A DNA stretch of 64,000 nt, taken from Escallonia rubra (lineage: Eukaryota; Streptophyta; Magnoliopsida; Escalloniales; Escalloniaceae). Every line of letters starts with the position of its first letter. Positions within the stretch are counted from its first letter, which is position 1. This document shows positions 5,045 through 59,060 of the stretch, one piece after another. The stretch covers positions 1 to 64,000 of the forward strand of contig JAVXUO010000887.1 in the NCBI GenBank assembly GCA_033065855.1. The letters run 5' to 3'. Under the pieces are notes generated by a model, which was not told the DNA's origin, searched no databases, and saw only the letters and a program-made list of their open reading frames with translations. The position numbers and the translations under genes were made by a program.

Positions 5045-7553
5045 CAGAGGGCAATGAATTTGATTTTTCATAATATGATTGGCAAATTTGTAGAAGTATA
5101 TATTGATTATGTAGTTGTTAAATCGGATGATCTTTAGGAACATATACGACATTTAGAAAATGCCTTCATAAGGATGACAAGACAAAATCTAAAATTGAAC
5201 CCTTTGAAATATTTTGGAGTTTCTGCGGGGAACTTTCTAGGATTTTTGGTTCACCAAAAGGGAATCGAAATCAACGAAAATAAACCAAAAGCTATTATAA
5301 ATGCTAAACTCCCTTCGAATAAGAATGAGCTCCAGCACTTTTTAGGCCAAGTTAATTTCTTATGTCGATTCATTGCTAACCTAACAGGAAAAATAAAAGC
5401 ATTCTCAGCATTTTCGGTGTTGAAAGGAGACACCGAATATCGTTGGGAAGCAGACCATTAGGAGGCTTTCCAATTGATAAGGGAATATCTAGCCAAGCCC
5501 CCAGTCCTAATGCCACCGAGAATCGGAAGGCCGTTAAAGCTATATGTATTAGCCGCGAAGTCATTGCTTCGCAGTTTACTAGCTCAGGAAAACAGTCAAG
5601 GCTTTGAACAAGCTATCTATTACTTTAGTCGAGGCTTAAATGTAACCACATAGAAGTACTCCATTATATAGAAGGTATTCTTAACTTTGTACTCTACCAG
5701 GATTAAACTTCGACACTATATGCTGCCCTTTGATGTGTTAGTGATAACACAACCCGATTTGATAAAATACATGCTATCAAGGCCAGTCTTGTCGAGAAAA
5801 ATGGGGAAGTAAGTCCTACAACTGATATAGTAGAGCTTAACTTATATTCCTCAGAAAGCCCAAATTATCCAAGCGATGGCATTGAGAACGAAGTAATCTA
5901 TGTTGGCATTGTTTATTGGAAAATGGCGTTTGATAGGTCAAAAACTAGCCAAGGAGCTGGAGCTGGAGCTAGAATAGTATTAATTTCACTCATCAGGAAT
6001 GTTCATCAATTTGCCTTTCAAATTGAAAAAGATTGCTCAAAGAACCAAGAAAATTATGAAGCTTTGGAGGCAGAAATATTGTTGGATATGCGTATAAGAA
6101 CAGTACAAATATTTGGAGACTCTCAGTTGGTGGTAAAACAATTAAATAGAGAATTCAAATGTAATGCTCCTGGTTTGGAGGTATATTTCAGTATTGCTTC
6201 ATATTTGCTAGCAAAATTTGACGATGTGACTATAACCCATGTTCCAAGGTTAAACAATGGAAATGCCAACGTCATGGCTCAATTGGCCTCAGGCTTAAGA
6301 GTGTTGGGATGAGTTATTGAGCAATGGGTAAAACTATCAGAACATTTGCCATTGATTGGTGATAGATATAAACAATTAGAAATGGTTAACCCAATCGATA
6401 TTGTTCAAGATGATTGGAGAGCACCCATTATTTAGTTTTTACAAAACCCTCAGTCAAAGGTAGACGCGAAAATAAAATTGAAAGCAATTTAAGTACTTTA
6501 TCCTAAACGGTGATTTGTTTGAACGAACAACAAAAGGACTCGTGTTAAGATGTTTAGGGTAACAAGAAGCTATGCAAGTGCAACAAGAAGCTATGCAAGT
6601 AATGGCTGAAGTACGTGAGGGTACTTGTGGTGCCCATTAGGCAGGTGTAAAAATGAGATGGTTGATTAAACGACATGGCCATTATTGGCCTACCATAATG
6701 GAAGATTGCATCAGATATGCAAAGAGATTCCAGGATTGCCAAAAGCATGGCATAGTTCATCGCGCAACTTGTATAGAGTTACAATCGATAGTGAAACAAA
6801 GGCCCTTCCAAGGATGGGCCATGGATTTAATAGGTCAAATACATCTTTTTTGTCCAAGAAACATGGGTTCATTATCGTAGCAACTGATTATTTTACAAAG
6901 TGAACGAAAGCCAAACCAATGAAAAGAGTTACTCATGAAAGTGTCATGATGTTCATCAAAGAGAATATAATCCATCGATTTGGATTACCACAGATGATTA
7001 CGGCAATAGAGGCACTGTTTCACTGGGGGCAAATACTTGTGTTTGCTAAAGAATATAAATTTGAAATAGTAAACTCTACTTCGTATTATGCACAAGCAAA
7101 CGGCCAAGCTGAAGCCACAAACAAATCAATTAAACACATTATAGAAAAGGCAATTGAAGATACCCCTAGTGACTGGCACCGATTATTGTCTGAGGTTCTT
7201 TGGGCATTTCGAACTTCTCCAAAGTCTAGTATATGAGTAACTCCATATGCTAAACGTTTGGACATGATCCCCTATTGCCCATGGAAATAACGGTAAGATC
7301 CTTCCAAGTAGCCGTGCAAAATAATATTCACGTGGCAGATCTTACAACATAAGGGTTTTACGAAATCATTTGAAGAACAAGATTTGGTTTGGAAGACAAT
7401 TCTTCTGATAGGATCAAAAGACCCAAAATTTGAAAATGGTCCTCAAATTGGGAAAGGTCGGTCTTTTCAAGTACATAAAGTTTTAAGAGGGGGAGCATGT
7501 TGGTTAAAATCTTTGGAAGGGCAGTTACACGCCAAGCCTATCAACGGCCGATA

Positions 7554-7556
<3 letters not shown>
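5045..7556 (+). pseudogene. Ty3/gypsy pol remnant (RT, two RNase H, integrase), Tat-like
   Basis: Decayed pol gene, read across several frames. It starts inside reverse transcriptase: RAMNLIFHNMIGKFVEVYID (5046 on), with the catalytic YIDD changed to YIDY and a stop soon after. RT thumb and a first RNase H follow to about 5800. A second RNase H lies at 5923-6312, with NYEALEAE and GDSQLVVKQ giving acidic active-site residues. Integrase follows: an HHCC zinc module near 6630-6750 (CQKHG at its end), WAMDLIGQ with the first Asp, a second Asp apparently lost in GLPQMITAIE, and the Glu kept in YYAQANGQAEA. The C-terminal pol tail with PINGRY ends at about 7554. Two RNase H domains in this order are known from the Tat lineage. 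It is cut on the left by a CACTA end and on the right by the giant element. Confidence 0.85.

Positions 7557-7589
<33 letters not shown>
7557..7589. repeat. TA microsatellite at the insertion site (left side)
   Basis: A run of about 16 TA units directly precedes the first base of the giant element. A matching shorter TA run lies directly after its last base (20937-20953). Any target-site duplication is hidden in these runs. Confidence 0.9.
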
Positions 7590-7591
<2 letters not shown>

Positions 7592-8580
7592 GAGGCGATC
7601 CACACCCACCGGTGGATAAAAAAAATTTCTCCACCCAACCGCATGTAAGAGAAGCGGTTGGGTAGGATTTCTTTTTGTCGTGGGCCCCACCACAAAAAAA
7701 CAGTGATTTTTTTTTTAGCCCAACCGCATGTAAGAGAACCAGTTGGGTAGGATTATCTTTTTGACGTGGGCCCACCACAAAAAAAGCACTCCACCCAACC
7801 GCTTCTCTTATACGCGGTTGGAACAAATTTTTTTTTTTAGCCCAACCGCTTCTAAGAGAAGCGGTTGGTAAGCACTTTTTTTTTTTAACAATTTTTTTGC
7901 CCACCAACCGCATATAAGAGAAGCGGTTGGTGGCTTGCGTAACTTTTTTTTGGGTGGCTCCCACACAAAAATTTTCTGATTTTTTGGTTGGCTCCCACAA
8001 AAAAAAAAAAAACTCGAGCACAAGCCTGCCACGTGGCGTCGCCCACGACTGCCACGTGGCCCAACCGCGTGAAGGGGCGCCGGTTGGGGCGATGCCCTGC
8101 CACGTGGCCCAACCACGTGAAGGGCCGCCGGTTGGGGTGATGCCCTGCCACGTGGCCTCTCCCGCGCCTGCCACGTGGCCTCTCCCGCGCCTGCCACGTG
8201 GCCCACAGCGTGAAGGGGCCCCGCGGCTTGCCCTTCCCCCCACGCCTGCCACGTGGCGCCCCCCCCCCCCCACGCGGGTGATGCCCCACCTGGCGTCCTT
8301 CCCTCCCCCGTGACTGTCCTTCCCTCTCCTTTTTTCTTTGTTTGCAGCTCACTTCAGAGTCTGCCAAATGTTTTTTTGCAGCCTATTCGGGCACTTTGCA
8401 GAGACCACTCACGGGTATTTTTTTTCCCTCTTTTTTCTTCTCTCTTCCTCACTTTTCTCTCTTTATAATCCCCTCCCCCCAACCCTTCTTCTCCACACTT
8501 CTTCTCCACAAACCAAAAAATTTTAGCGCTAGAAGATCGGTGGATAATCGCTAGAAGATCGGTAGATTTTTCTTCAAATA
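7590..8580. repeat. Left terminal region with stem-loops
   Basis: The first 350 bp carry five imperfect hairpins. Each has the stem CCAACCGC / GCGGTTGG and a loop of about 10-15 bases that often reads ATGTAAGAGAA: near 7637, 7718, 7795, 7848 and 7900. A GC-rich block (8028-8330), a pyrimidine-rich block (8330-8520), and a short direct repeat CGCTAGAAGATCGGT (8527-8560) follow. The right arm has the same order inverted (20210-20936). No gene is seen here; reading frames through it are low-complexity. Confidence 0.75.
8028..8256. promoter_or_regulatory. CACGTG (G-box) array, left arm
   Basis: Seven copies of the perfect palindrome GCCACGTGGC lie within about 230 bp, plus one AACCACGTGAAG. They alternate with GCGCCGGTTGGGG-type spacers. 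CACGTG is the core G-box, bound in plants by bZIP and bHLH factors. In a transposon end it could instead be a transposase or host-factor docking site. What binds it is not known from sequence. Confidence 0.7.
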
Positions 8581-10155
8581 CATCAAGTCACAACAAGTAA
8601 GTATTTTGAATTTCCTTATAATTCAATGTTAGGTTTATACAAATCAGCGTATTACATTTAGCGTATTACATTTATAGCGATTCAAAATAGCGTATTACAT
8701 TTATAGACAGTTTTTCACGAATTTATAAAAAATAACTAGAGCGAGATTTTGCCAAAGTACAAAAAAGAGATCCTAGTTATTCTGAAAGGATCTATATCAA
8801 GTAAAAATTTCAGATTTTTCCAAAGACCGTAAAGGGGCTAACTGATACGGGGAACCGTGTACCTTCGCAGTCTAATTTAAAATACCAAGCTAGCGCGATT
8901 TCGCGCGAAACTTTTACGAGAACCCTAGGATGTTGGGAAGTTCCATTCCCCAGGATTTCGCGCCATTCTGGAGCCGTTAGCTATATTTTTGGCCGAACGA
9001 CCCTTTCAGCGCTCGCCCTTTAATTAGACAGTTTTTTCATGAATTTATAAAAAATAGCTAGAGCGTGATTTGGCCAAAGTGCAAAACAGAGACCCTAGTT
9101 ACTCTGAAAGGATCTGTATCAGGTAAAAATTTCAGATTTTTCCAAAGACTGTAAAGGGGCTAATTGATACGGGGAACCGTGTACCTTCGCAGTCTAATTT
9201 AAAATACCAAGCTAGCGCGATTTCGCGCGAAAATTTTTCAAGAACCCTAGGATGTTGGGAAGTTCCATTCCCCAGGATTTCGCGCCATTCTGGAGCCGTT
9301 AGCTATTTTTTTGGCCAAACGGCCCTTTCAGCGCTCGATCCGGACACCGGTTCGCGATTTTTGCGCGAAAAATCCGTAAAGTACTTTTTAGGCCAAGGAT
9401 GAACTCACGAAGCGTAAAGTAGCATTTCGAGGCACCTTTGAGATTTTTCCTGATGCCAGGGGCATTTTGGTAATTTGCCAGCCCGCGAGGGGTTTTTCGG
9501 TAATTTTTCCGCGCCAAGTTTTTAATTAGACAGTTTTAGTCCAGGAATGTAATCACATAACCTGAAATGTTGTTTTGAAGCTGGTTCGGGGGCGTTGGGG
9601 TGATAGTGAACTCCCGGGGGCATTTCGGTAATTTGTCGCTCATCGGGGGCTATTTTGCTAGGAAGGATCCAGCTTAAAGGGCCATACCTTAAAATAACTT
9701 TTAGTTCAGCAAAGGGTGTCAGACACCCGAAAACTTTTATTGTTCCGGGTGAATTCAGGAACTTGTGACGCACCGGCGATGACTGCCAGGGGGTATTTTC
9801 CATAAGTAGCGGGTGTTTTGGTAACTTTCCCCCTTTAAAATTTTTCCTGATATATTTGGTATATAATTGACGTAATACATTTAAAAACTTGACTTTAAAA
9901 CGGTTTTGAGGTCTTGGGGGTGTAGGGGCCATCGGGGGGTATATTGCTATATAACCACGTTGGCGCTAAATTCAATGAGAACTAGCGTAATTAAGCGTTC
10001 GGAGTGGTGGGAAGTGAGGATTTGTTTTAATACATTGAAATAATGACTATTGCTAATGTGTTGGTAAGCTAGGTTAAAGATCCAGGAATGTAGTTTTGGA
10101 ATGTAAATATTATGGACGCTAAGTTGGTTTACGATTATATTTTGTTCTTAGAGAT
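8581..10155 (+). promoter_or_regulatory. Leader/promoter module of the left PMD-Ulp1 gene, partly duplicated
   Basis: Non-coding stretch between the terminal region and the PMD gene. A unit starting GACAGTTTTTTCA...GAATTTATAAAAAATAGC occurs twice in tandem (about 8705-9020 and 9029-9350). It contains the conserved blocks GCTAGCGCGATTTCGCGCGAAA and GGGAAGTTCCATTCCCCAGG-like sequence. A second part (9390-9960) repeats the motif GGGGCATTTTGGTAATTTG about five times. The same second part stands before the FAR1 gene (14040-14340) and in the right arm (17960-20090). Promoter function is an inference from position. Confidence 0.55.
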
Positions 10156-13100
10156 ATGGATTTCAACCCCGAACCTCATGATACATCAATCCTATACGAT
10201 GACGATGACCACGTTGCGAGGCACGTATTTGACGGTGTCGATAGGGGTGTTTTGGAAACAATTCAAACCACAAGAGGAATTGAAGAGTGGGTACTAAACG
10301 AGGAACAAAAAGCCCTTATACACGGTCAAAATTTAAGCATGTTCACCGATTGCGGGAAATGGTATCGACACGACGATTGCCTTATATCCGCTCTAGTTGA
10401 ACGATGGATGAGCGAGACGAACTCATTTCATTTCCGGTTTGGTGAAATGACTGTTACGTTAGAGGACGTCGGATATATACTTGGAATCCCATGTCACGGC
10501 AGACCCGTTACTCTGAGCGTGCCGTCTGCATCCGTAGCGAATATGGCTAGGCATTATTTTCCGGGAATTCCAAGGGCAGCTCTTACAACAAACGGCGTCA
10601 AGCTTAAATGGCTGAGAGAGCAGTATGGCGTGCTACCGGATGAATACACTCGTCATGATTTCGTGACGTATACGAGGGCATACCTTCTGTATATTATTGG
10701 AGCCATATTACTTCCGACGCATTCGAAAAACACGGTGCATCCGAAGTATATGGTGTTATTGGAGGATCTTGACGAGGTATACTCGTATTCGTGGGGTTCA
10801 GCTGTCCTTGCGCACCTATATCAAGCACTGCATAAGGCTACGAGAAACGGTGCCAAGTCCATTGCCGCCTGCCTGACTCTATTACAGGTATGAGCATTTA
10901 TTTTCTTACCCGGATCCTTAGTCAATATATTCGGGATTCATTACTAATTCCATATAATGTTTGCGTTCACAAGTTTGGTCTTACGAGAGGCTACCCACAG
11001 GTCGTCCACAACCGTTGGTAGATTCCGATGAGACGTGGCCTAGGGTGTGGGCCTGGGGGCCTCCGACCAACCGGAGGAGGAGACGGGTAGACCCTCACAA
11101 CCATCTACAGTTCTATCGGGGGGAACTAGAGATGCTGGATGCATACCAGGTGATGTGGCAGCCATATGACAAGGTGATGCATCTGTTGGATGAGTTGTGT
11201 TGGCAACTTCCGAAGTATATGGTGTTATTGGAGGATCTTGACGAGGTATACTCGTATTCGTGGGGTTCAGCTGTCCTTGCGCACCTATATCAAGCACTGC
11301 ATAAGGCTACGAGAAACGGTGCCAAGTCCATTGCCGCCTGCCTGACTCTATTACAGGTATGAGCATTTATTTTCTTACCCGGATCCTTAGTCAATATATT
11401 CGGGATTCATTACTAATTCCATATAATGTTTGCGTTCACAAGTTTGGTCTTACGAGAGGCTACCCACAGGTCGTCCACAACCGTTGGTAGATTCCGATGA
11501 GACGTGGCCTAGGGTGTGGGCCTGGGGGCCTCCGACCAACCGGAGGAGGAGACGGGTAGACCCTCACAACCATCTACAGTTCTATCGGGGGGAACTAGAG
11601 ATGCTGGATGCATACCAGGTGATGTGGCAGCCATATGACAAGGTGATGCATCTGTTGGATGAGTTGTGTTGGCAACTTCCAGTGTCGTACGTGCTTGCAG
11701 GTTTGGTTCGGGTGCCGCTCATTCACTTCGAAGAATGTGAGTTTCAGATGCCCGATCGAGCTATGAAGCAAGCTGGCTGTCCACAAGGGATTTCGAAACC
11801 CGCTGTAGACATGCGGCCATACAGGGGTGGTCGAGGGCCGAACTTTGAGGTGGCTAATGCCTTGACTGTGTTGGGTGACGAGGTGCAACAATGGAATACC
11901 TGGCAGAAAACGTATGACAGCCTTGTATCGCTGAAGCACGACGGCATCAGTACTGAGGACTACTTACAGTGGTTTCTCAGGGTGACGCGCACGAGGGTGA
12001 ATCGCCCTTCCCAGGTGAAGGAGACATCGTATGCGCCACGTGAGGTCTATGACCAATACTGGGCATTGGCCATTGTAAGTCATGCTAGTGTTGTTTGATA
12101 ATTTATTTGCGCACGCGTATCGACCATCAAATGAAATGATTAGCCATATTTTCTATGCATGTTTTTTAGGTTGACCAGGCCACTGACGTGTTCAAGCAGC
12201 TGGAGTCGTTTGACTGGTTTGTCGCGCAGGCTCCTGACAATATCAAGAGGTCCATTGAGAGGTACAAGACTGATGTTCAAAACTTTAGTCTTGCGTACCG
12301 GGGTTACCAAGGGGAGCCGTCTAGTCGCCCTCCTCCTGACGCTTACGACTATCAGCCCCAGAGTCAGGTGTGGGAGCCGTCTAGTCGCCCTCCTCCTGAC
12401 GCGTACGACTACCGAACTTTGAGTCAGGTGTGGGAGCCGTCTAGTCGCCCTCCTCCTGACGCGTACGACTACGGAACTTCGAGTCAGGTGTGGGAGCCGT
12501 ATAGTCGCCCTCCTCCTGACACATACGACTCTCAGTGCCAGAGTCAGGTTCCCCAAGTAGGAATCCATGCCTCGCGCCCAAGCTTCCGGTCGAACAAAGG
12601 ACAAGCGACGAAGCCATTGAGGCCGGAGAAGATGGGTTGGATCAACCGGCACTACTTCGGGCATGAGCCTGTCAATTCAACAGACTTCCCTCTTGGGACA
12701 CTCCTAGGTCATTCGGATATCAGAATGTTGGCGCCGGAGACAAATCTTTCAAATTTTGTCATGAACGCTTACATAGATCTGCTCCGGATTAGAGAGCATC
12801 ATTTTAACCGTTCTGAATACTGTAAGCTTAACATGTATCCCACTCATTTTTTGGAATTAGCGATCCGGGAATTCCATGAATGGAGGCAAGGGGGCAACAG
12901 GAGTAATTGGAAACCAGGTCGAAACGTGTTATGCATGATGAACGCAGAGTATCAATGTCCCGCTGCTGATGCGAACCTTATCATGATACCTTGTCTTCAT
13001 GGGCACCACTGGTTCCTATTAGTTCTCCATCCAGCGTTCAGAACGGTTCACATATACGATAGCCTAAGGGAGCACGAGCCTGGACAGCTGCTGGCACAGA

Positions 13101-13477
13101 TGTACAACGACTACATCACTTTAGTGGTTAGTTTTTATTTTTTGACCTTGGCTCATAGTATATTGTTGTTGTTTCATAGGCTTGATTCTCGATTTTATTG
13201 TTGGATGCAGACTACTGTCCTCTCGCTAGCGTGCGGACGGCCACGGGGGGAGCCTTGGACGGTCGTGATGATAAAGGACCGACCAAAGCAATATAACGGT
13301 AACGATTGCGGGATTTACGTCCTCAAGTACATGGACTACATTGCTCGCTCGAAAGTGCTCAAACACTCCTCGTGGACTAGGAAGGATGCCTTGACGTTTA
13401 GGTATAGGATAGCCTGGGAGCTGAAAAAGAATGAAGCCAGACGACTTCATTACCATTATCCTGACGTGCGTGGCTAG
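10156..13477 (+). CDS. Plant mobile domain (PMD) - Ulp1 protease fusion, left arm
   Basis: Exon 1 (10156-10891) is a PMD, with the family blocks CLISALVERW, GEMTVTLEDVGYILGIP, YLLYIIGAILLPTHS and GSAVLAHLYQALHKA. Exon 2 follows in the second copy of a tandem duplication (about 11444-12074) and finishes the PMD with VWSYERL and a DEVQQW region. Exon 3 (12170-13126) has a linker with four 20-residue Pro-rich repeats and then a C48 Ulp1-like protease with catalytic His in HGHHW and Asp in IYDSL. Exon 4 (13211-13477) gives the Gln in KQYNG and the Cys in DCGIYVL. The Ulp1 family cleaves SUMO or its precursor; PMD is a domain shared with transposons and gene-silencing factors. Two problems: the 469-bp duplication, and an exon-2 acceptor that seems shifted by one base. 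It may therefore yield two separate products, or none. Confidence 0.75.
10742..11679 (+). repeat. Perfect 469-bp tandem duplication inside the PMD gene
   Basis: Bases 10742-11210 and 11211-11679 are the same sequence repeated head to tail, with no difference that I could find by reading both. The unit runs from the end of PMD exon 1 through the intron into exon 2. It duplicates the exon-1 tail, one donor, one acceptor and the exon-2 start. The right arm does not carry this region, because it is deleted there. Identity this high means a very recent event or an assembly artefact. Confidence 0.9.
12314..12553 (+). repeat. 60-bp coding minisatellite (20-residue Pro-rich repeats)
   Basis: Four in-frame copies of a 60-bp unit encode EPSSRPPPDAYDY followed by a variable heptad ending SQVW. 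It forms the flexible linker between the PMD and the Ulp1 protease. The right-arm gene has only two degenerate copies (about 16645-16745). Expansion and contraction in exact multiples of three keeps the frame. Confidence 0.9.
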
Positions 13478-13497
13478 CTGCTGTGATGTTACAAAAA

Positions 13498-13790
13498 ACT
13501 GTACCAAAAAGAAATGTACATAATTTTTCGCATGCTATGAATTTGGCGCTAAAATGTGCGCGAATATACAGTTCATATGACGCATTCGAAAAAATAACGT
13601 GTCTTGTTTTTCGCCGAAATACATAAGAATGGGCTAACTAGCGCGCCTCATGTGCAATGAGCGAAAAAAAAGTGACAAAAAAATTTACAAGATTTTTCGA
13701 ACGTTATGAATTGGCCCCTAAAGTGTGCCCGAATAGGCCCTTCATAGGAAAACTCAAAAAATAACGTGTCTCGTTTTTCGCCGAAATACT
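13498..13790. repeat. Inner end of left arm (about 1.5 copies of the 167-bp repeat)
   Basis: Downstream of the Ulp1 stop codon the sequence contains TTTTTCGCCGAAATAC and AGTGACAAAAAAATTTACAAG blocks. These are the complement of the tandem repeats at 14870-15600. This marks where the left arm of the inverted repeat ends. Confidence 0.7.
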
Positions 13791-14035
13791 GCCAGGTTTC
13801 GATACCTGAAACATTAACCCTAACACTCTTCCTCATCATCGTCCTCCTCGACCATACTGCCAGGTACCTAACACTTAAACCCTAACACTCTTCCTCCTCA
13901 TCGTCCTCCTCGACCATACTGCCAGGTACCTAACACTTTAACCCTAACACTCTTCCTCCTCATCGTCCTCCTCGACCATACTGCCAGGTTAGGGGCAGGG
14001 CAGTATGTTAGGGTTAAAGTGTTAGGTATCGAACC
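13791..14035. repeat. 62-bp minisatellite in the centre of the giant element
   Basis: A unit starting GCCAGGTACCTAACACTT and containing ACCCTAACACTCTTCCTCCT occurs three to four times with a 62-68 bp period (13791, 13859, 13921, 13983). An inverted partial copy (TTAGGGTTAAAGTGTTAGG) follows at about 14009. The ACCCTAAC block resembles plant telomere repeats only by chance: it occurs once per unit, not in runs. Confidence 0.8.
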
Positions 14036-14039
14036 CTAA

Positions 14040-14423
14040 CACTTTTGAGATTTTTCCTGCTTAAAATCCCGTTTCAAAGCACTTTTCAGATTTTACGATG
14101 CCAGGGGCATTTTGGTAATTCGCAGCCCCGAGGGGGTATTTTCGTAATTTTGCTCAGTTAAATTTTTCAAAGGACTTCTTAGTCCAGAAATGTAAGCAAA
14201 GCACCTGAAAGGTTGTTTTCAAGCTGATTTGAGACGTTAGGGTGATAATGAACCCCCGGGGGTATTTCGGTAATTTGCCGCTCGTCGGGGCTATTTTGAT
14301 AATTTTACCTGCCTACAAATTTTTCCCGCAATTAACTTTTAGATAATTTTTATTCTTCTTTTATTTAATTCTATGACTTGTTGAGAATGATATAATTTTT
14401 ATGTTTTAGATTTCAATATAAAT
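14040..14423 (+). promoter_or_regulatory. Leader module in front of the FAR1 gene fragment
   Basis: This is a recognisable copy of the 9390-9700 leader, with the blocks GCCAGGGGCATTTTGGTAAT, CTTAGTCCAGAAATGTAA and CCCGGGGGTATTTCGGTAAT in the same order. It ends just upstream of the FAR1 start codon. The shared leader suggests that the PMD-Ulp1 and FAR1 genes of this element were driven by one promoter type. Confidence 0.6.
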
Positions 14424-14765
14424 ATGAATCCAACTGGAGGAAATAATATTTGTGAAGGTTCTGATCCACCTTACTTGGGTAAAGTTTTTCAAACACTGGA
14501 CGAAGTTGAAGCATACTATAGAGCATATTCGAAAACGATAGGTTTCGGTATTAGAACTAAGACGACTAGAAAACGGGCGAATACAGATCAAATTTGTGGA
14601 AGACTATTTGAGTGTCATAGAGGAGCACCGCATGTACCCCCAGTCATTCGGATCAGTGACGAAGGGACAACAAGACAAAGAAAACGGGACACATTTCCGG
14701 GTACCGGCTGCAAAGCCCATGTGTATGCAGTACACCGGAAAAATGAAAACCATTGGTTTGTTTAA
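14424..14765 (+). pseudogene. FAR1-type transposase gene, N-terminal fragment
   Basis: The 113-residue reading frame starts MNPTGGNN and matches the FAR1 DNA-binding domain, with FQTLDEVEAYYRAYSKTIGFGIR, then KRANTDQICGRLFECHR and a TGCKAHVY block that supply the Cys/His zinc-binding residues. FAR1/FHY3 factors descend from Mutator-like transposases, and in transposons this domain sits N-terminal to the catalytic DDE region. Here it stops at 14765 and no DDE or SWIM region follows; instead the 167-bp repeats begin. It is therefore a truncated gene, or a small DNA-binding protein if expressed. It has no inverted partner in the arms apart from a scrap near 19408-19430. Confidence 0.75.
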
Positions 14766-14865
14766 ATGTTTCAGTTGTATAACGAATAACTTTTATAATG
14801 TTTAAATTTGTGATTTGGTTTGTTGAATCTTTAATTTGTGATTTGATTTGTGGATTATTGATATT

Positions 14866-15610
14866 TTTTGAATGGCATATTCGCGCACACTTTAGCGCCC
14901 AATTCATAGCTTCCAAAAAATCTTGTAATTTGTTTTGTTCATTGCACTTTAGGCACGCTTTAGTGGCCACTTCATAACTTTCGAAAAATCTTGTAATTTT
15001 TTTTGTCACTTTTTTTTCGCTCATTGCACATGAGGTGTGCTAGTTAGCCCATTCTTATGTATTTCGGCGAAAAACGAGACACGTTATTTTTTGGGTTTTC
15101 CTATGAAGGGCCTATTCGGGCACACTTTAGGGGCCAATTCATAACGTTCGAAAAATCTTGTAATTTTTTTTGTCACTTTTTTTTCACTCATTGCACATGA
15201 GGCATGCTAGTTAGCCCATTCTTATGTATTTCGGCGAAAAACGAGACACGTTATTTTTTGGGTTTTCCTATGAAGGGCCTATTCGGGCACACTTTCGGGG
15301 CCAATTCATAACGTTCAAAAAATTTTGTAATTTTTTTTGTCACTTTTTTTTCGCTCATTGCACATGAGGCACGCTAGTTAGCCCATTTCTATGAATTTCG
15401 ACGAAAAAAAAGATAAATTATTTTTTGGGTTTTCCTACGACGCCCCTATTCGCGCACATTTTAAGGCCCAATTCTTAGCTTGCGAAAAAAGTTGTAATTT
15501 TTTTGTCACTTTTTTTTCTCTCATTGCACCTCATGCACGCTAGTTAGCCCATTTTTATGAATTTCGGCGAAAAGCGAGACGCGAAATTTTTTCGAATGCG
15601 TCATATGAAA
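14866..15610. repeat. 167-bp tandem repeats at the inner end of the right arm
   Basis: About four and a half copies of a unit containing TCATTGCACATGAGG, CTAGTTAGCCCATT, TTTCGGCGAAAAACGAGAC and CCTATTCGGGCACACTTT repeat with a 157-168 bp period (marker positions 15019, 15187, 15354, 15511). The left arm has only about one and a half inverted copies (13560-13790). Confidence 0.85.
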
Positions 15611-15703
15611 GGTATATTCGCGCACATTTTAGCGCCAAATTCATAGCATGCAAAAAATTATGTACATTTCTTTTTGGTACAGTTTTTTGTAACATCACAG
15701 CAG

Positions 15704-17781
15704 CTAGCCACGCACGTCAGGATAATGGTAATGAAGGCGTCTAGCTTCATTCTTTTTCAGCTCCCAGGCTATCCTATACCTAAACGTCAAGGCATCCTTC
15801 CTAGTCCACGAGGAGTGTTTGAGCACTTCTGAGCGAGAAATGTAGTCCATGTACTTGAGGACGTAAATCCCGCAATCGTGACCGTTATATTGCTTTGGTC
15901 GGTCCTTTATCATCACGACCGTCCAAGGGTCCCCCTGTGGCCGTTCGCACGCTAGCGAGAGGACAGTAGTCTGCATCCAACAATAAAAACGAGAATCAAG
16001 CCTATGAAACAAGAACAATATACTATGAGCCAAGGTCAAAAAATAAAAACTAACCACTAAAGTGATGTAGTCATTGTACATCTGTGCCAGCAGCTGTCCA
16101 GGCTCGTCCTCCCTTAGGCTATCGTATATGTGAACCGTTCTGAACGCTGGATGGAGAACTAATAGGAACTAGTGGTTTGCATGATGACAAGGTATCATGA
16201 TAAGGTTCGCATCAGCAGCGGGACATTGATAGTTTGCGTTCATCATGCCTAACACGTTTCGACCTGGTTTCCACTTACTCCTGCTGCCTCCTCGCCTCCA
16301 TTCTGTGAATTCCCTCACCGTTAATTCCACAAAATGAGTGGGATACATGTTAAGCTTCAAGTATTCAGAACGGTTAAAATGATGCTCTCTAATCCTGAGC
16401 AGATCTATGTAAGCGTTCATGACAAAATTTGAAAGATCTGTCTCCGGCGCCAACGTTCTGATATCATCATGACCTAGGAATGTCGCAAGAGGAAAATCTG
16501 TTGAATTGACAGGCTCATGCTTGAAGTAGTGCCGGTCGATCCAACCCATCTTGTCCGGCCTCAATGGCTTCGTCGCTTGTCCTTTGTCCGACCGGAAGCT
16601 TGGGCGCGAGGCCTGGATTCCTACTTGGGGAACCTGACTCTGGCACTGAGAGTCGTATACGTCAGGAGGCAAGCGACTATACGGCTCCCAGAATTCATAG
16701 CTATGCGATGAAGACGCGTCAGGAGGCAAGCGACTAGACGGCTCCCCTTGGTAACCCCAGTACGCAAGACTAAAGTTTTGAACTTCAGTCTTGTACCTCT
16801 CAATGGACCTCTTGAGATTGTCAGGAGCCTGCGCGACAAACCAGTCAAACAACTCTAGCTGCTTGAACACCTCAGTGCCCTGGTCAACCTAAAAAACATG
16901 CATAGAAAATATGGCTAATCATTTCAGGCATGGTCGATAAGGTGCGCAAATAAATTATCAAACAACACTAGCATGACTTACAATGGCCAATGCCCAGAAC
17001 TGGTCATAGACCTCACGTGGCGCGTACGATGTCTTCTTCACCTGGGAAGGGCGATTCACCCTCGTGCGCGTCACCCTGAGAAACCACTGTAAGTATTCCT
17101 CAGTACTAATGCCGTCGTGCTTCAGCGATACAAGGCTATCATACGTTTCCTGCCAGGTATTCCACTGTTGCACCTCGTCACCCAACAAAATCAAGGCATC
17201 AGCCACCTCGAAGTTCGGCCCTCGACCACCCCTGTATGGCCGCATGTCTACAGCGGGTTTTGGTATCCCTTGTGGACAGCCAGCTTGTTTTGGTATCCCT
17301 GTAGCACGCCGTACTGCTCTCTCAGCCATTTAAGCTTGACGCCGTTTGTTGTAAGAGCTGCCATTGGAATTCCCGGAAAATACTGCCTAGACATATTCGC
17401 TATGGATGCAGACGGCACGTTCAAAGTAACGGTTCTGCCGTAACATGGGATTCCAAGTATATATCCGACGTCCTCTAACGTAACAGTCATTTCACCAAAC
17501 TGGAAGTGAAATGAGTTCGTCTCGCTCCTCCATCGTTCAACTAGAGCGGATATAAGGCAATCGTCGTGTCGAGACCATTTCCCGCAATCGGTGAACAGGG
17601 TTAAATTTTGACGGTGTAATAGCTGTATTTGTTCCTTGTTTAGTACCCACTCTTCAAGGTGCCTTGTGCTTTGAATTGTTTCCAAAACACCCCTATCGAC
17701 ACCGTCAAATACGTGCCTCGCGACGTGGTCATCGTCATCGTATAGGATTGATGTATCATGAGGTCCAGGGCTGAAATTCAT
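15704..17781 (-). pseudogene. PMD - Ulp1 fusion, right arm, broken
   Basis: Inverted copy of the 10156-13477 gene. The PMD part (17781-17310) starts MNFSPGPHDTS and is about 88% identical in protein to the left copy by eye. It then jumps at GVLQG to the piece AGCPQG...AVDMRPY, losing the PMD C-terminal half. A 12-bp motif GGATACCAAAAC is repeated at the deletion joint. The linker and Ulp1 N-terminal part follow (16870-16169). At the catalytic His region the Trp codon is TAG (HHANH, then stop), so the protease is cut before its Asp and Cys. The final exon region (16081-15704) still has NGHDCGIYVL. A second product is unlikely to be active. Confidence 0.8.
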
Positions 17782-17789
17782 ACCTCTAA

Positions 17790-20209
17790 GAACAAAATAT
17801 AATTATGAACCAACTTAGCGTCCATAATATTTACATTCCAAAACTATAACTGGATCTTTAACCTAGCTTACCAACACATTAGCAATAGTCATTATTTCAA
17901 TGTATTAAAACAAATCCTCACTTCCCACCACTCCGAACGCTTAATTACGCTAGTCAGCAGGTGAATTTAACGCCAATGTGGTTATATAGCAATATACCCC
18001 CCGATGGCCCCTACACTCCCAAAACCCCCAAAACCGCTTTAAAGTCAAGTGTTTAATGTGAATATGTCAATTATATACCAAATATATCAGGAAAAATTTT
18101 AAAGGGGGAAAGTTACCAAAACACCCGCTACTTATGCAAAATACCCCCTGGCAGTCATCGCCGGTGCGTCACAAGGTTCAGAACATCCGGAACAAAATAA
18201 GTTTTCGGGTGTCTCACACCCTTTCCTGAACTAAAAGTTATTTTAAGGTATGAATTTTAAGCTGGATCCTTCATAGCAAAATAGCCCCCGATGAGCGGCA
18301 AATTACCGAAATGCCCCTGGGGGTTCACTATCACCCCAACACCCCCGAACCAGGTTCAAAACAATATTTCAGGTGGTTTACTTACATTTCTGGACTAAAA
18401 AGTCGTTTGGAAAACTTGGCGCGGGAAAATTACCAAAACACCCCTCGCGGGTTAGCAAATTACCAAAATGCCCCTGGCATCAAGAAAAATATCAAAGGTG
18501 CCTTAAAATGCTATTTTACGCTTCCTGAGTTAATTCTTCATCTAAAAAGTATTTTACGGATCTTTCGCGCAAAAATCGCGAACCGGTGTCCGGATCGAGC
18601 GCTTAAAGGGCCGTTCGGCCAAAAAAATAGGTAACGGCTTCGGAATGGCCCGAATTCCTGGGGAATGGAACTTCCCAACATCCTAGAGTTCTCATAAAAG
18701 TTTCGCGCGAAATCGCGCTAGCTTGGTATTTTAAATTAGATTGCGAAGTTACACGGTTCCCCGTATCAGCTAGCCCCTTTACGGTCTTTGGAAAAATCTG
18801 AAATTTTTACCTGATACAGATCTTTTGAAAATACCTAGGGTCTCTGTTTTGTACTTTGGCAAAATCATGCTCTAGCTATTTTTTATAAATTCGTGAAAAA
18901 ACTGTCTAATTAAGTTTTCAACCCTAGCGCCAATTACGCCCCCGAACCGTAAAATTACCAAAACACCCCTCGCGGGGTGGCAAACTACCAAAATGCCCCC
19001 TGGCATGAGAAAATATCAAAAGTGCTTTAAAAAGCTATTTTAAAGCTTCCTGAGTTCATTCTTGATCTAAAAAGTATTTTACGAATTTTTCGCCTAAAAA
19101 TTCGAACCGGTGTCCGGATCGAGCGCTTAAAAGCCCGTTCGGCCAAAAAATTAGCTAACGGCTTCGGAATGGCCCGAATTCTTGGGAATGGAACTTCCCA
19201 ACACCCTAGGGTTCTCATAAAAGTTTCGCGTGAAATCGCGCTGGCTTGATATTTTAAATTACACTACAAAGTTACAAAGGTTGCGCGTATCAGTATTTGT
19301 GAAATTAGTGAAAAAACTGTCTAATTAAGTTTTCACCTTTAGCGCCAATTACGTTTCATATTCACATTAAACACACATAGTGTTACACCCTAGGAATACA
19401 CATAGTGTTGAAAATTATTTCCTCCAGTTGTGTTACAACGTTCAGTTACCAAAATACCCTCGCTGAGCGACAAATTATCGAAATGCCCCCGGGGATTCAT
19501 TATCACCCCTACGCGCGCCAAATCATCTTCAAAACAACATTTCAGGTTTTGTAATTACATTTCTGGACTAAAAAGTCCGTCGAAAAACTTAGCACTGTAG
19601 AATTACCGAAATACCCCTCTCGGGGCGGCGAATTACCGAAATGCCCCCTGGCATCGAAAAATATCAAAAGAGGCTTCGAAATGCTATTTTAGGCTCCCTG
19701 AATTCATTCTTGACCTAAAAAGTATTTTACGGAGGTTTCGCCCAAAAATCCCGAACCGGTGTCCGGATCAAGCGCTTAAAGGGCCGTTCGGCCAAAAAAA
19801 TAGGTAACGGCTTCGGAATGGCCCGAATTCCTGGGGAATGGAACTTCCCAACATCCTAGGGTTCTCATAAAATTTTCGCGCGAAATCGCGCTAGCTTGAT
19901 ATTTTAAAATACACTGCAGAGTTACAAGGTTCCCCGTATCAGTTAACCCCTTTCCAGTCTTTGGAAAAATCTGAAATTTTTACCTGAGACAGATCCTTTA
20001 AGAATAACTAGGGTCTCTTTTTTGTATTTTGGCAAAATCTAACTCTAGCTATTTTTTATAAATTCGTGAAAAACTGTCTATAAAATCGCTATTTTAGAAT
20101 CTATAAATGTAATACGCTGATTTGTATAAACCTAACATTGAATTATAAGGAAATTCAAAATACTTACTTGTTGTGACTTGATGTATTTAAAGAAAAATCT
20201 ACCGATCTT
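17790..20209 (-). promoter_or_regulatory. Leader region of the right arm, with extra leader copies and a FAR1 scrap
   Basis: Inverted counterpart of 8581-10155, but longer. It has three copies of the GACAGTTTTTTCACGAATTT / GAAGTTCCATTCCC block (near 18640-18910, 19140-19330 and 19790-20085) and extra copies of the GGGGCATTTTGGTAATTTG block. At about 19408-19430 it reads, on the minus strand, CAACTGGAGGAAATAATTTT. That matches the first codons of the FAR1 gene at 14431. So a leader-plus-FAR1-start segment was once part of this arm. Confidence 0.55.
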
Positions 20210-20936
20210 CTAGCGGTTATCCACCGATCTTCTAGCGTAAAATTTTTTGGTTTATATTGTTGTGGAGATTATGTAGGTGAGATATGAAGTACGAAGGAAA
20301 TTGGTAAATATGATAGAGTGCAGAATAAGGGTTCGGGGGAGGGGATTATAAAGAGAGAAAAGTGAGGAAGAGAGAAGAAAAAAGACAGAAAAAAGTGAGG
20401 AAGAAAAAAGAAAAAAGACAGAAAAAAAAACCCGTGATCGACAGTCAAAGGCTGCGGCAAAAAAAAAAATTCGGCAGAAGGACACCACGTGGGGCCACGT
20501 GGCAGGGAGGGAAGGATGACACGTGGCAGGGCATCGCCCAACCGCGGGTTGTTCATGCGGTTGGGCCACGTGGCAGGGAGGAAGGACGACACGTGGCAGG
20601 GCCACTCCCCCAACCGCGGGTTGTTCATGCGGTTGGGCCACGTGGCAGGGAGGGGGGACGACACGTGGCAGGGGCCATGGGGTTGGGCCACGTGGCAGGC
20701 GTGGAAGACGACACGTGGCAGGGGAAATTAATGCCAACCGCTGCTTCTTTATGCGGTTGGTGTCCTTTTTCCAATTTCTCATGGTATTTTCACCAATTTC
20801 TCACCATTTCACCATTTTCTCTTGCCATTTTTGCCATTAATGCAGTGGGCCGTACACTTTTTTTCCCAACCGCTGCTGTTACCTGCGGTTCGGTGGAGAA
20901 ATTAATTTTTTCCCACCGGTGGGTGTGGATCGCCCC
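20210..20936. repeat. Right terminal region
   Basis: Inverted counterpart of 7590-8580: the TCTAGCG/ATCTTCTAGCG repeat, a purine-rich tract (20340-20440), the CACGTG array, GCGGTTGG blocks near 20745 and 20890, and the terminus CACCGGTGGGTGTGGATCGC. It is about 260 bp shorter than the left side and has lost some hairpins. Confidence 0.75.
20480..20730. promoter_or_regulatory. CACGTG (G-box) array, right arm
   Basis: Nine CACGTG cores occur in about 240 bp, alternating CCACGTGGC and ACACGTGGC, in units that also contain CCAACCGCGGGTTGTTCATG. The array is organised differently from the left one, so the two arms have diverged by unit turnover rather than being kept identical. Confidence 0.7.
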
Positions 20937-20982
20937 TATATATATATATATATCTCTCTGTGTGTGTGGGGGGGGGGGGATG
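20937..20982. repeat. Compound microsatellite after the giant element
   Basis: TA repeats (20937-20953) pass into TC, then TG, then a run of about ten G. This is the right side of the insertion site. Confidence 0.85.
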
Positions 20983-31659: not shown

Positions 31660-32290
31660 AGGATTTGATAGAACTTAGAGTTCTTGTACGCGCCCTTGGG
31701 GGCAGATGTAGAGCAAAGCTCATGTAAATACCCTTGGGGGTTTGACGGAACTTAGAGTTCTTGTACGCGCCCTTAAGGATGGATGGAGCACAAAGCTTGC
31801 GTAAATACCCTTGAGGGTTTGATGGAACTTTAGAGTTCACGTACGCGCTCTTGAGGGCTGATGGAGCGCAAAGCTCATGTAAGTACCCTTGAGGGTTTGA
31901 TGGAACTTAGAGTTCTCATACACGCCCTTGAGGGCGGATGAAGCACAAAGCTTGTGTAAAATACCCTTAAGGGTTTGATGGAACTCTAGAGTTCATGTAC
32001 GCGCCCTTGAGGGCGGACGGAGCACAAAGCTCATGTAAATACCCTTGGGGGTTCGACAGAACTTAGAGTAATGCACCCTTGAGGGCGGATGGAGCGCAAA
32101 GCTTATGTAAATACCTTAGGGGATTTGATGGAACTTAGAGTTCTCGTACACGCCCTTGAGGGCTAACGGAGTGCGGAGCTCGTGTAAACACCCTAGGGGT
32201 TTTGACGAAACTTAGAGTTCTCGTGCGTGCCCTTGAGGGCTAATGAAGCGCAGAGCTCGTGTAAATACCCTAGGGGGTTTGAGTCAAAGA
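31660..32290. repeat. 77-78 bp tandem repeat, about eight copies
   Basis: The marker GAACTTAGAG recurs at 31671, 31748, 31825, 31903, 31981, 32059 and 32131, a very regular 77-78 bp step with one shorter step, and a diverged copy follows at about 32207. Each unit holds the palindrome-like block CGCCCTTGAGGGC and the block GCAAAGCTCATGTAAATACC. A related weaker repeat (GAGAAGGCG...TTTAGCCCGTAATAT) continues to about 32500. It could be an internal tandem array of the CACTA element that ends at 33186, or part of a retroelement. Confidence 0.85.
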
Positions 32291-58019: not shown

Positions 58020-59060
58020 GACATTTTAACTGTATGTAAGAGTATGATAATTTTATAATGATGAAAGAGAATTTTATGCATTTTGAAATAAATAAGTGAA
58101 AGTAAAAGAGAAAAAAAACATTCATCTACCTTCATGTACTTTACGGATGTTAGTCATTTGACTGACAAAGTCTTGGAGTACCTATCTGTCTTTAGATCGA
58201 AGGAAGAATTTTTATTCTTTTACTTAAATTGAAAAATAAGAACAAGAAAAGAAAGATATCATGATTTTATTATTGAGTAACTTCTAAGAAAGTAAAAATC
58301 GAGGGTACGGTATATTTGGAAAGATCGTTACTTTAACTTTCACATGTAGTGCTTTTTTCATGGGAAGATGGAGTTTATAAGTGGACTTCGACCATCTTTA
58401 TACTTTGACATAAGGATTGAAATTGTGACAATCTACTTTGGTCAAATGGCACTAATGCCACTTTCCGAGTTTTTCACTAAAATAATAGAAGGTTTGTTAA
58501 TTTAAACACATTCCCTATAAATAAATAAAAAAGGCCACTTAACTCGGTGATATATAATATTTTTATTATATGTAAGAGTATGATACGAAGTAACTTTATA
58601 ACGATGAAAGAGAAATTTATGCATTTTTAAATAAAATGAGTGAAAGTAAAAGAGAAAAAAATGTTCATAAACGTTCATGTACTTTACGGATGTTAGTGAT
58701 CTGACTGACAAAATCTTAGAGCACCTTTCTGTCTTTAGACCGAAGGAAGAATTTCTATCCTTTCACTTAAATAAAAAAAAAGCAAGAAAAGAAAGATATC
58801 ATGATTTTTTTACCGAGTAACTTCTAAGATAGTCGAAATCGAGGACCATGGTACATTTTTGGAAAAATCGTTACTTTAACTTTCACATGTATTACTTTTT
58901 TCTTGAGAAGATGGAGTTTGTAAGTGGACTTCGACCATCTTTGTACTTTGACATAAGGATTGAAATTGTGAGAATCTACTCTGGTCAAATGGCATTAATG
59001 CCACTTTCCGAGGTCTTCACTTAAATAATGGAGAGTTTCTTAAAATTTCTCTCACAACAG
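58020..59060. repeat. 536-bp direct tandem duplication, diverged
   Basis: TGTAAGAGTATGAT at 58035 recurs at 58571. The order GATGAAAGAGAA, GTGAAAGTAAAAGAG, CATGTACTTTACGGATGTTAG, GTCTTTAGA, GAAAGATATCATGATTTT, TTCACATGTA and GACTTCGACCATCTTT is kept in both copies with many point changes. It lies upstream of the pectin acetylesterase gene. No coding signal was seen. Confidence 0.85.

Follow-up and report, generated by a model that had tools for sequence, protein, structure and literature searches.

In maize, the element MuDR carries two convergent genes, a transposase gene and a second gene, mudrB, which read from opposite terminal inverted repeats (TIRs) of ~215 bp, and it is silenced by Mu killer, an inverted partial duplication of mudrA that holds two copies of TIRA and for which a hairpin RNA has been proposed, as far as the accessible sections of PMC3440606 describe these loci. 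The excerpted part of a review ties Ulp1 proteases borne by Mutator-like elements (MULEs) to VANC-type anti-silencing (PMC13317346), and an anti-silencing use of MULE-borne PMD is offered as speculation in the excerpts of PMC5418596. TA targeting and the presence in MULEs of ULP1 and of PMD have each been published already, and our searches of open-licence PMC texts revealed no description of a MULE with PMD-Ulp1 as a separate gene. Here we analyse a near-palindromic element with a PMD-Ulp1 arm on either side of a FAR1 fragment, located at 7590-20936 of a 64,000-nucleotide stretch of the Escallonia rubra genome (GCA_033065855.1, contig JAVXUO010000887.1, positions 1 to 64,000 of the forward strand; hereafter the window, to which coordinates refer unless another locus is named). 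In our assessment it is probably a rearranged, non-autonomous MULE in which repair synthesis placed a PMD-Ulp1 arm at the FAR1-side end, with double-stranded RNA as a likely effect.

A preliminary description of the locus had reported inverted ends in a TA microsatellite, inverted arms, CACGTG arrays in both ends and a FAR1 fragment at their meeting point, and had proposed a self dot-plot as a check; our comparison of the window with itself shows the near-palindrome at 7590-20936, and each of these features was recovered. The two ends repeat each other in inverted orientation (7574-7662 against 20953-20865, 88.9% over 90 columns, ~16 of which are flanking TA), and a TA run of at least 6 units adjoins each of them (7556-7589 and 20937-20952, the latter running into TC and TG repeats), with no run of at least 6 units found between the ends in a scan of the element interior. 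These runs are the (TA)n target microsatellite, and the 9-bp target duplication is unreadable in them, since all 12 elements that we tabulated with their flanks sit in TA repeats. The arms (8510-13787 against 20253-15395) are mostly 89-92% alike, far beyond chance, and pair in four blocks: 8510-9013 with 20253-19771 (89.5%), 9020-10639 with 18913-17298 (91.5%), 11769-12410 with 17287-16651 (91.6%) and 12432-13787 with 16746-15395 (91.8%). The outermost sequence is mirrored in so far as the ends are inverted copies, but identity falls to 74-77% over the left arm's first kilobase and the two ends differ in type, the left terminal region (7590-8000, + strand) being of end type A and the right (20760-20936, - strand) of end type B. 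Likewise, terminal stem-loops had been ascribed to each arm: they are present on the left, where 7618-7698 pairs with 7835-7758, but this pairing has no counterpart among the right-end matches of the self-comparison. CACGTG (G-box) motifs are concentrated in both ends, with 8 sites at 8000-8300 (+ strand) and 9 at 20440-20760 (- strand), compared with means of 0.23 (maximum 3) and 0.25 (maximum 2) in 300 first-order Markov simulations. Pfam searches placed PMD and Peptidase_C48 in both arms and FAR1 at 14391-14765 on the + strand.

The family to which this element belongs was recovered by searching the source genome (566 Mb in 3222 contigs, whose loci or contigs are given C-names below) with the left end of the window, the best 40 of 498 candidates being scored: 39 further places match at 83-91% over ~500-600 bp, and nine contigs exhibit facing pairs of ends. 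Seven of the eleven loci fetched are ordinary copies (C2492, C168, C2455, C2369, C2128, C2144 and C3182), 11.8-13.9 kb in total, with TIRs of ~2.3-3.8 kb made of end, G-box array and leader, in which one PMD-Ulp1 gene faces one FAR1-MULE-SWIM transposase gene, each starting just inside a TIR. This MuDR-type convergent layout is found in the seven ordinary copies and not in the window copy; the earlier picture of TIRs of 5-6 kb holding whole genes does not hold for these related copies, whose genes lie inside their shorter TIRs. The remaining loci comprise a deleted copy that retains PMD and a piece of FAR1 (C1482), a locus with foldback ends in which PMD, Ulp1 and transposase queries were without match (C2359) and two partial or rearranged loci (C2266, rearranged, and C1653, which showed one end). 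The transposase frame is open over 779 codons in C2128 and C2369 and carries stops, a frameshift or a deletion in the other five ordinary copies; the C2128 frame encodes FAR1, MULE and SWIM domains (MULE PF10551, E 9.9e-33) and is similar to FRS5-like proteins, with 46% identity to the top-ranking of 1358 database matches. Insertion in (TA)n is common to all 12 tabulated elements, window included (the right flank of C1482 being short and imperfect), and these elements have 4-17 CACGTG sites per end within 1.2 kb, as against 0-0.21 per kb in their interiors. The terminal motif is present at both ends in the window, eight related copies and C2193; it is incomplete in C1482 (one end degraded), C275 (not found on the left) and C2266 and C1653 (one end only). 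The family is a MULE that sits in TA microsatellites. Its outermost six bases differ between copies (GGGAAC, GGGGCC, GGGGAC, GGGGTC) and are the same at both ends in five of the eight copies with readable ends, as if homogenised, a count that leaves out the window, whose ends differ, and C1482, which has lost one end. From frame and order, the PMD and Ulp1 exons would form one protein; both domains occur (by Pfam) in one Heracleum protein, P0123, and the pairing is thus not peculiar to the Escallonia rubra genome. In addition, P0001 (a transposase, 46% identical) and P0122 (a PMD protein, 38%) are each recorded with an ENA contig of 7311 bases as the longest, perhaps one and the same contig, which suggests that another plant has this gene pair too.

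Alignment to the ordinary copies shows where the window copy departs from them. Up to 13789 the left arm is an ordinary PMD-Ulp1 half, which is followed by a junction scar (13790-14039) containing three ~62-bp antisense copies of the transposase 3' end (13806-13990) and an inverted 23-bp piece (14006-14028 against 13949-13927). The scar resembles a templated insertion, and templated insertions with such pieces are a pattern of polymerase-theta-type end joining. From 14040 the window corresponds to the FAR1-side half reversed, that is, the end of the leader, the FAR1 exon and then the facing PMD-Ulp1 half: a truncated FAR1-side leader and the transposase 5' part with its FAR1 domain occupy 14040-14761 (+ strand) and end at a breakpoint (14761-14765, + strand) where ~1.96 kb of transposase is missing relative to C2128, the window continuing directly beyond 14761 with sequence that lies 3' of the transposase stop in C2128. 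Only the FAR1 part, residues 8-129, is retained, with a 113-aa frame from the ATG at 14424. Since no catalytic transposase is left, the window copy would be mobile only by means of the transposase of ordinary copies.

The transposase deletion itself is shared. A query across it, with the best 40 of 2222 candidates scored, is contiguous in the window and in 15 loci besides it (C1576 and C984 match from position 79), and 24 further loci match the FAR1 part only, at 96-98%, one of which, C1881, also has the far side ~140 bases off. The joining sequence is identical in 16 of 16 aligned loci, and the deletion therefore most simply arose once and then spread. We fetched the 1.7-2.3 kb upstream of FAR1 from the 14 deletion loci besides the window and C275: twelve exhibit the ordinary leader, seven of these with the terminal motif at the outer end, C1576 and C984 exhibit other element fragments, and a Ulp1 arm was found in none of the 14 within the stretches fetched, with C182 showing a 72-bp match to the 3' repeats beyond its leader. 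At least 10 of the 15 non-window FAR1-only loci are accompanied by the Ulp1 3' part among the best 40 matches of one Ulp1 search, and C1576 is also among the best matches of the search made with the other arm. We had considered the FAR1-only frame as a conserved repressor, an idea left unsupported by frames that vary or are broken across the 16 loci: they span 113 aa in the window and C1314, 125-126 aa with a shifted tail in C1174, C182, C1389 and C1915, and 104-118 aa with frameshifts in C275, C1541 and C702, stop after 4-77 aa in C1817, C1125, C1123, C3180 and C822, and are without their 5' part in C1576 and C984. Paired FAR1 exons that point apart, with ~2.5-2.7 kb between them, were also seen (C2536:44069-47330 and C122:19798-22928) and possibly represent the reciprocal arrangement for the transposase gene.

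Searches with the Ulp1 3' part of either window arm, scored for the best 40 of 907 and the best 40 of 911 candidates, gave 77 distinct places in 75 loci; facing PMD-Ulp1 arms occur in only two of these 75 loci, the window and C275. The two-arm palindrome is a rare derivative and not the normal form of the family, although palindromes may be under-assembled, as a contig end is no more than 6.5 kb away from 17 of the 32 Ulp1 places that were retrieved. In C275 the inverted arms extend over 7069 bp at 97.4% identity, each with PMD and Ulp1, around a central FAR1 stub with the same transposase breakpoint as in the window. The join between arm and FAR1 stub lies at the equivalent of window position 14132 and has a 2-bp overlap. 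Type B sequence lies near both ends, which are adjoined by TA repeats in flanks that, by eye, are unlike those of the window. C275 is also damaged: its left Ulp1 is frameshifted, its right PMD exon has a shortened open frame, and its left terminus has lost ~20 bases of terminal motif. The preliminary description had allowed for a one-off head-to-head insertion or assembly chimera among single-armed elements with short TIRs: the other copies examined are indeed single-armed, but have long TIRs, and once C275 turned up, a one-off fusion of two elements no longer sufficed as the sole account. The idea that the window and C275 form one palindromic subfamily, defined by the FAR1 breakpoint, was in turn weakened by the ordinary leader of 12 of the 14 other carriers.

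Comparison of the Ulp1 region reveals the composition of both palindromes. In a tree of this region the C275 arms pair with each other (support 0.949, 99.1% identical). Young copies share 97.5-98.9% identity with the window left arm, which is closest to a C275 arm (98.9%), whilst the right arm is 98.6% identical to C2193 and 91.5-92.9% to the others, with many further places 95-99% like it among the best 40 matches of one Ulp1 search. Arm identities and tree together indicate that the two arms of C275 are nearly identical copies and that the window merges two lineages. The FAR1 stub of the window groups with C1314 (support 0.874) and is without a 1-bp deletion present in that of C275. The window copy is a mosaic non-autonomous derivative, combining a young left arm, an older right arm and a FAR1 stub of the deletion lineage. 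We propose that a break in the FAR1-side end would have been repaired by synthesis from a PMD-Ulp1 arm, as the inverted relationship of the two TIRs allows. As template, the window copy would have used a separate and younger element, and C275 probably its own arm or else a close relative; synthesis would have ended in a template-switch scar in the window and in a 2-bp microhomology join in C275. Given that the joins differ and that the C275 arms are 97.4% identical over 7 kb, the replacement of the FAR1-side end by a PMD-Ulp1 arm probably occurred twice, a single origin with a later deletion in C275 being less likely. In P-type elements, gap-repair abortion, slippage and template switching are a source of defective copies (PMC4168063, in the portion available).

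The arms differ in the state of their genes. On the left (all + strand), a leader at 8510-10120 with 313-bp units at 8704-9015 and 9025-9337 reaches the point near 10120 where the TIR of ordinary copies stops, and is followed by a PMD exon with an open reading frame (ORF) of 256 aa (10123-10893; Pfam PMD, E 2.2e-45), a second PMD ORF of 223 aa (11427-12098), a Ulp1/C48 protease ORF of 435 aa with His/Asp/Gln/Cys motifs (12170-13477; PF02902, E 1.9e-16) and a 3' region of ~166-bp repeat units (13493-13789). The Gln-Cys stretch of the protease aligns with SENP2 (i-Evalue 2e-5) and its His-Asp stretch aligns weakly. Within this ORF an 87-bp GT-AG stretch (13126-13212) is in frame and stop-free and, across 42 copies, varies less than the exons (4 in 84 versus 88 in 543 sites), for which its lower G+C content (0.33 versus 0.50) may be the explanation. 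The left PMD gene also contains an exact tandem duplication at 10740-11680 (10740-11211 equal to 11209-11680), which is either very recent or an assembly effect. On the right (all - strand), a 3' region of ~166-bp units (14952-15688) precedes the Ulp1 coding region (15704-16888), a PMD 3' remnant (16958-17287), a PMD 5' remnant (17298-17802) and a leader (17824-20253) with a 313-bp unit at 18596-18908. The right-arm gene is broken: Ulp1 carries a stop codon at 16169-16171, the PMD part carries an additional stop, and the counterpart of left ~10640-11768 is absent from it in the self-comparison. Thus PMD and Ulp1 matches are found in each arm, as first described, but the claim of a full protease gene in both TIRs has to be withdrawn. 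Outside the element, apparent remains of a Ty3/gypsy-type retrotransposon pol lie at 5734-7536 (RVT_3 at 5734-6312 by Pfam, the rest by eye), the left end of the element being close to their 3' coding end, and self-comparison also detected a tandem array of ~77-bp units, mostly 80-83% alike, at 31660-32282 and a ~480-bp direct repeat at 58023-58500 and 58559-59043 (86.5% identical).

Several observations weigh against repair synthesis as the origin of the window copy. The C275 join, at the equivalent of 14132, falls inside the extent of the window, which runs from 14040, so that a single ancestral palindrome, followed by a deletion in C275, would also be conceivable, if less likely. Supports within the FAR1-only group range from 0.10 to 0.94, and the Ulp1 tree sets the long-branch right arm and C2193 beside the window left arm (support 0.741). 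Together with the 97% identity to the right arm that the left arm reaches in the final 500 bases before 13589, this grouping makes an exchange between the window arms, near the centre, possible. C275, moreover, may be immobile through its damaged left end; this damage and the position of the right arm in the tree reduce our confidence in the explanation that we prefer. A single ancestral palindrome, of which the window and C275 would be transposed survivors altered by later gene conversion and decay, draws on the central FAR1 stub with the same breakpoint in both palindromes and on the 98.9% identity of the window left arm to a C275 arm; we regard it as unlikely, since the breakpoint also occurs in at least 12 copies with an ordinary FAR1-side leader and is most likely older than the palindrome, the joins of arm to FAR1 are unlike (scar at 13790-14039 against a 2-bp overlap), the FAR1 stub of the window groups with C1314 and does not share the 1-bp deletion of C275, and the right arm of the window copy comes from another lineage. 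That two separate elements came to lie side by side or nested, with a deletion between them, would account for arms of different lineages and for a right half that looks like a FAR1-only element cut at 14040, but neither a terminal motif nor a TA run of at least 6 units is present in the centre, and the comparable C275, whose arms are nearly identical and which has type B sequence close to either end, fits arm copying better, which makes such a fusion improbable overall, though conceivable for the window taken by itself. Highly improbable is an assembly error fusing two different copies: although assembly trouble in the family is evident from the many Ulp1 places near contig ends, and the left arm holds an exact duplication, the palindromic form was found independently in C275, a structured scar, in which pieces are triplicated and inverted, marks the window join in place of a clean switch in shared sequence, and (TA)n adjoins both ends, as one insertion would give.

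The palindrome could also have been selected, by supplying a doubled dose of a VANC-like anti-silencing protein to elements that borrow transposase. Here one could point to the Ulp1 3' part accompanying at least 10 of the 15 non-window FAR1-only loci, to tandem arrays in every examined end, comparable to the VANC target arrays described in the sections at hand of PMC5735166, and to a match of the PMD exon to DUF1985, a domain known in VANC, that stays below the Pfam cut-off (29.8 versus 35.1 bits). We nevertheless consider this extremely improbable, as the right-arm gene of the window is broken, C275 has one defect per arm, only two of 75 loci are palindromic and purifying selection on the Ulp1 3' part was not significant among 42 sequences, mostly best matches and hence biased to intact copies (60 of 88 changes non-synonymous, expected fraction 0.71, p 0.32). 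Pooled NG86 dN/dS values for the canonical copies, C1482 where present and the window left arm (transposase without the window), broken copies included, were 0.53 for PMD exon 1, 0.97 for PMD exon 2, 0.79 for Ulp1 and 0.68 for the transposase. Turning back to the rearranged MULE produced by repair synthesis, the window copy has one open Ulp1 frame, facing arms, and G-box arrays and leaders at both ends. Read-through or convergent transcription of the arms would yield double-stranded RNA, and its most likely effect, if the locus is transcribed, would be directed against the PMD-Ulp1 gene and the shared TIR; the silencing idea seems plausible, and the window and C275 would be, in anatomy, counterparts of Mu killer for the gene in the mudrB position. 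Very doubtful, in contrast to this, is the further-reaching notion that PMD-Ulp1 is a sequence-specific anti-silencer acting on the G-box arrays of the long TIRs, kept by transposase-less copies for the protection that it gives them, and that repair across the inverted TIRs repeatedly converts this gene into its own double-stranded RNA silencer; if true, one family would yield both an anti-silencer and its killer.

FARE2 elements of Arabidopsis are large and contain ULP. They share foldback MULE-type ends with the family described here, a likeness of anatomy and not of compared sequence (FARE1 is named in the excerpts of PMC4486113). Closer in target choice are MuTAnT and AutoMuTAnT of Medicago truncatula, TA-microsatellite MULEs with foldback-type TIRs, GGGG-type ends and a Jittery-like transposase; AutoMuTAnT, however, is 4.9 kb long with a single ORF, the 218 mined MuTAnT copies have a mean TIR of 47 bp, and PMD and Ulp1 go unmentioned in the available sections of that paper (PMC4486113). 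Kaonashi/KIU and other ULP1 MULEs likewise have a C48 protease gene beside the transposase, and grapevine ULP1 MULE families carry it in either orientation, with and without TIRs, according to the parts at hand of PMC2528002 and PMC13317346; in contrast to the KI-MULEs, which are non-TIR elements, the family here has PMD joined to Ulp1 and very long TIRs. VANC of VANDAL elements is also an extra MULE gene accompanied by short-motif arrays in non-coding parts (PMC5735166 and PMC10398659, in excerpt), but VANDAL TIRs are degenerate, and any binding or demethylating activity of PMD-Ulp1 would be hypothetical. MULE-encoded PMD-C proteins show that PMD is carried by MULEs, although in the cases covered by the excerpts of PMC5418596 (several grasses and Amborella) it is fused to transposases, whereas here it stands beside Ulp1 and separate from the transposase. 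The ordinary element pairs a FAR1-type transposase with PMD-Ulp1, domains treated separately in plant silencing and anti-silencing, and through this pairing the proposed anti-silencing role of MULE-borne PMD and Ulp1 can be put to the test.

The maize system offers a further comparison. The ordinary copies are organised like MuDR, with PMD-Ulp1 in place of mudrB, TIRs of ~2.3-3.8 kb and a FAR1/FRS5-like transposase. With dozens of related copies and two palindromes with readable joins, the origin of silencer-type loci can be traced in sequence, and template switching across long inverted TIRs is the route to them that we propose. An element with a protease gene in both TIRs had initially been thought without described parallel; Mu killer, in which part of mudrA is duplicated in inverted form, sets a precedent for inverted gene duplication in a Mutator-type element. 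The anatomy of Mu killer, an inverted duplication of an element gene together with its end, is present in the window and in C275: as described in the consulted sections of PMC3440606, Mu killer shares with the window an internal deletion, an inverted partial duplication of one gene and the same TIR twice, yet it involves ~1.3 kb of the gene, whereas the arms of the window and C275 measure ~5-7 kb, the duplicated gene is PMD-Ulp1, silencing by these loci is putative and, in the window, the outer ends are of two different types.

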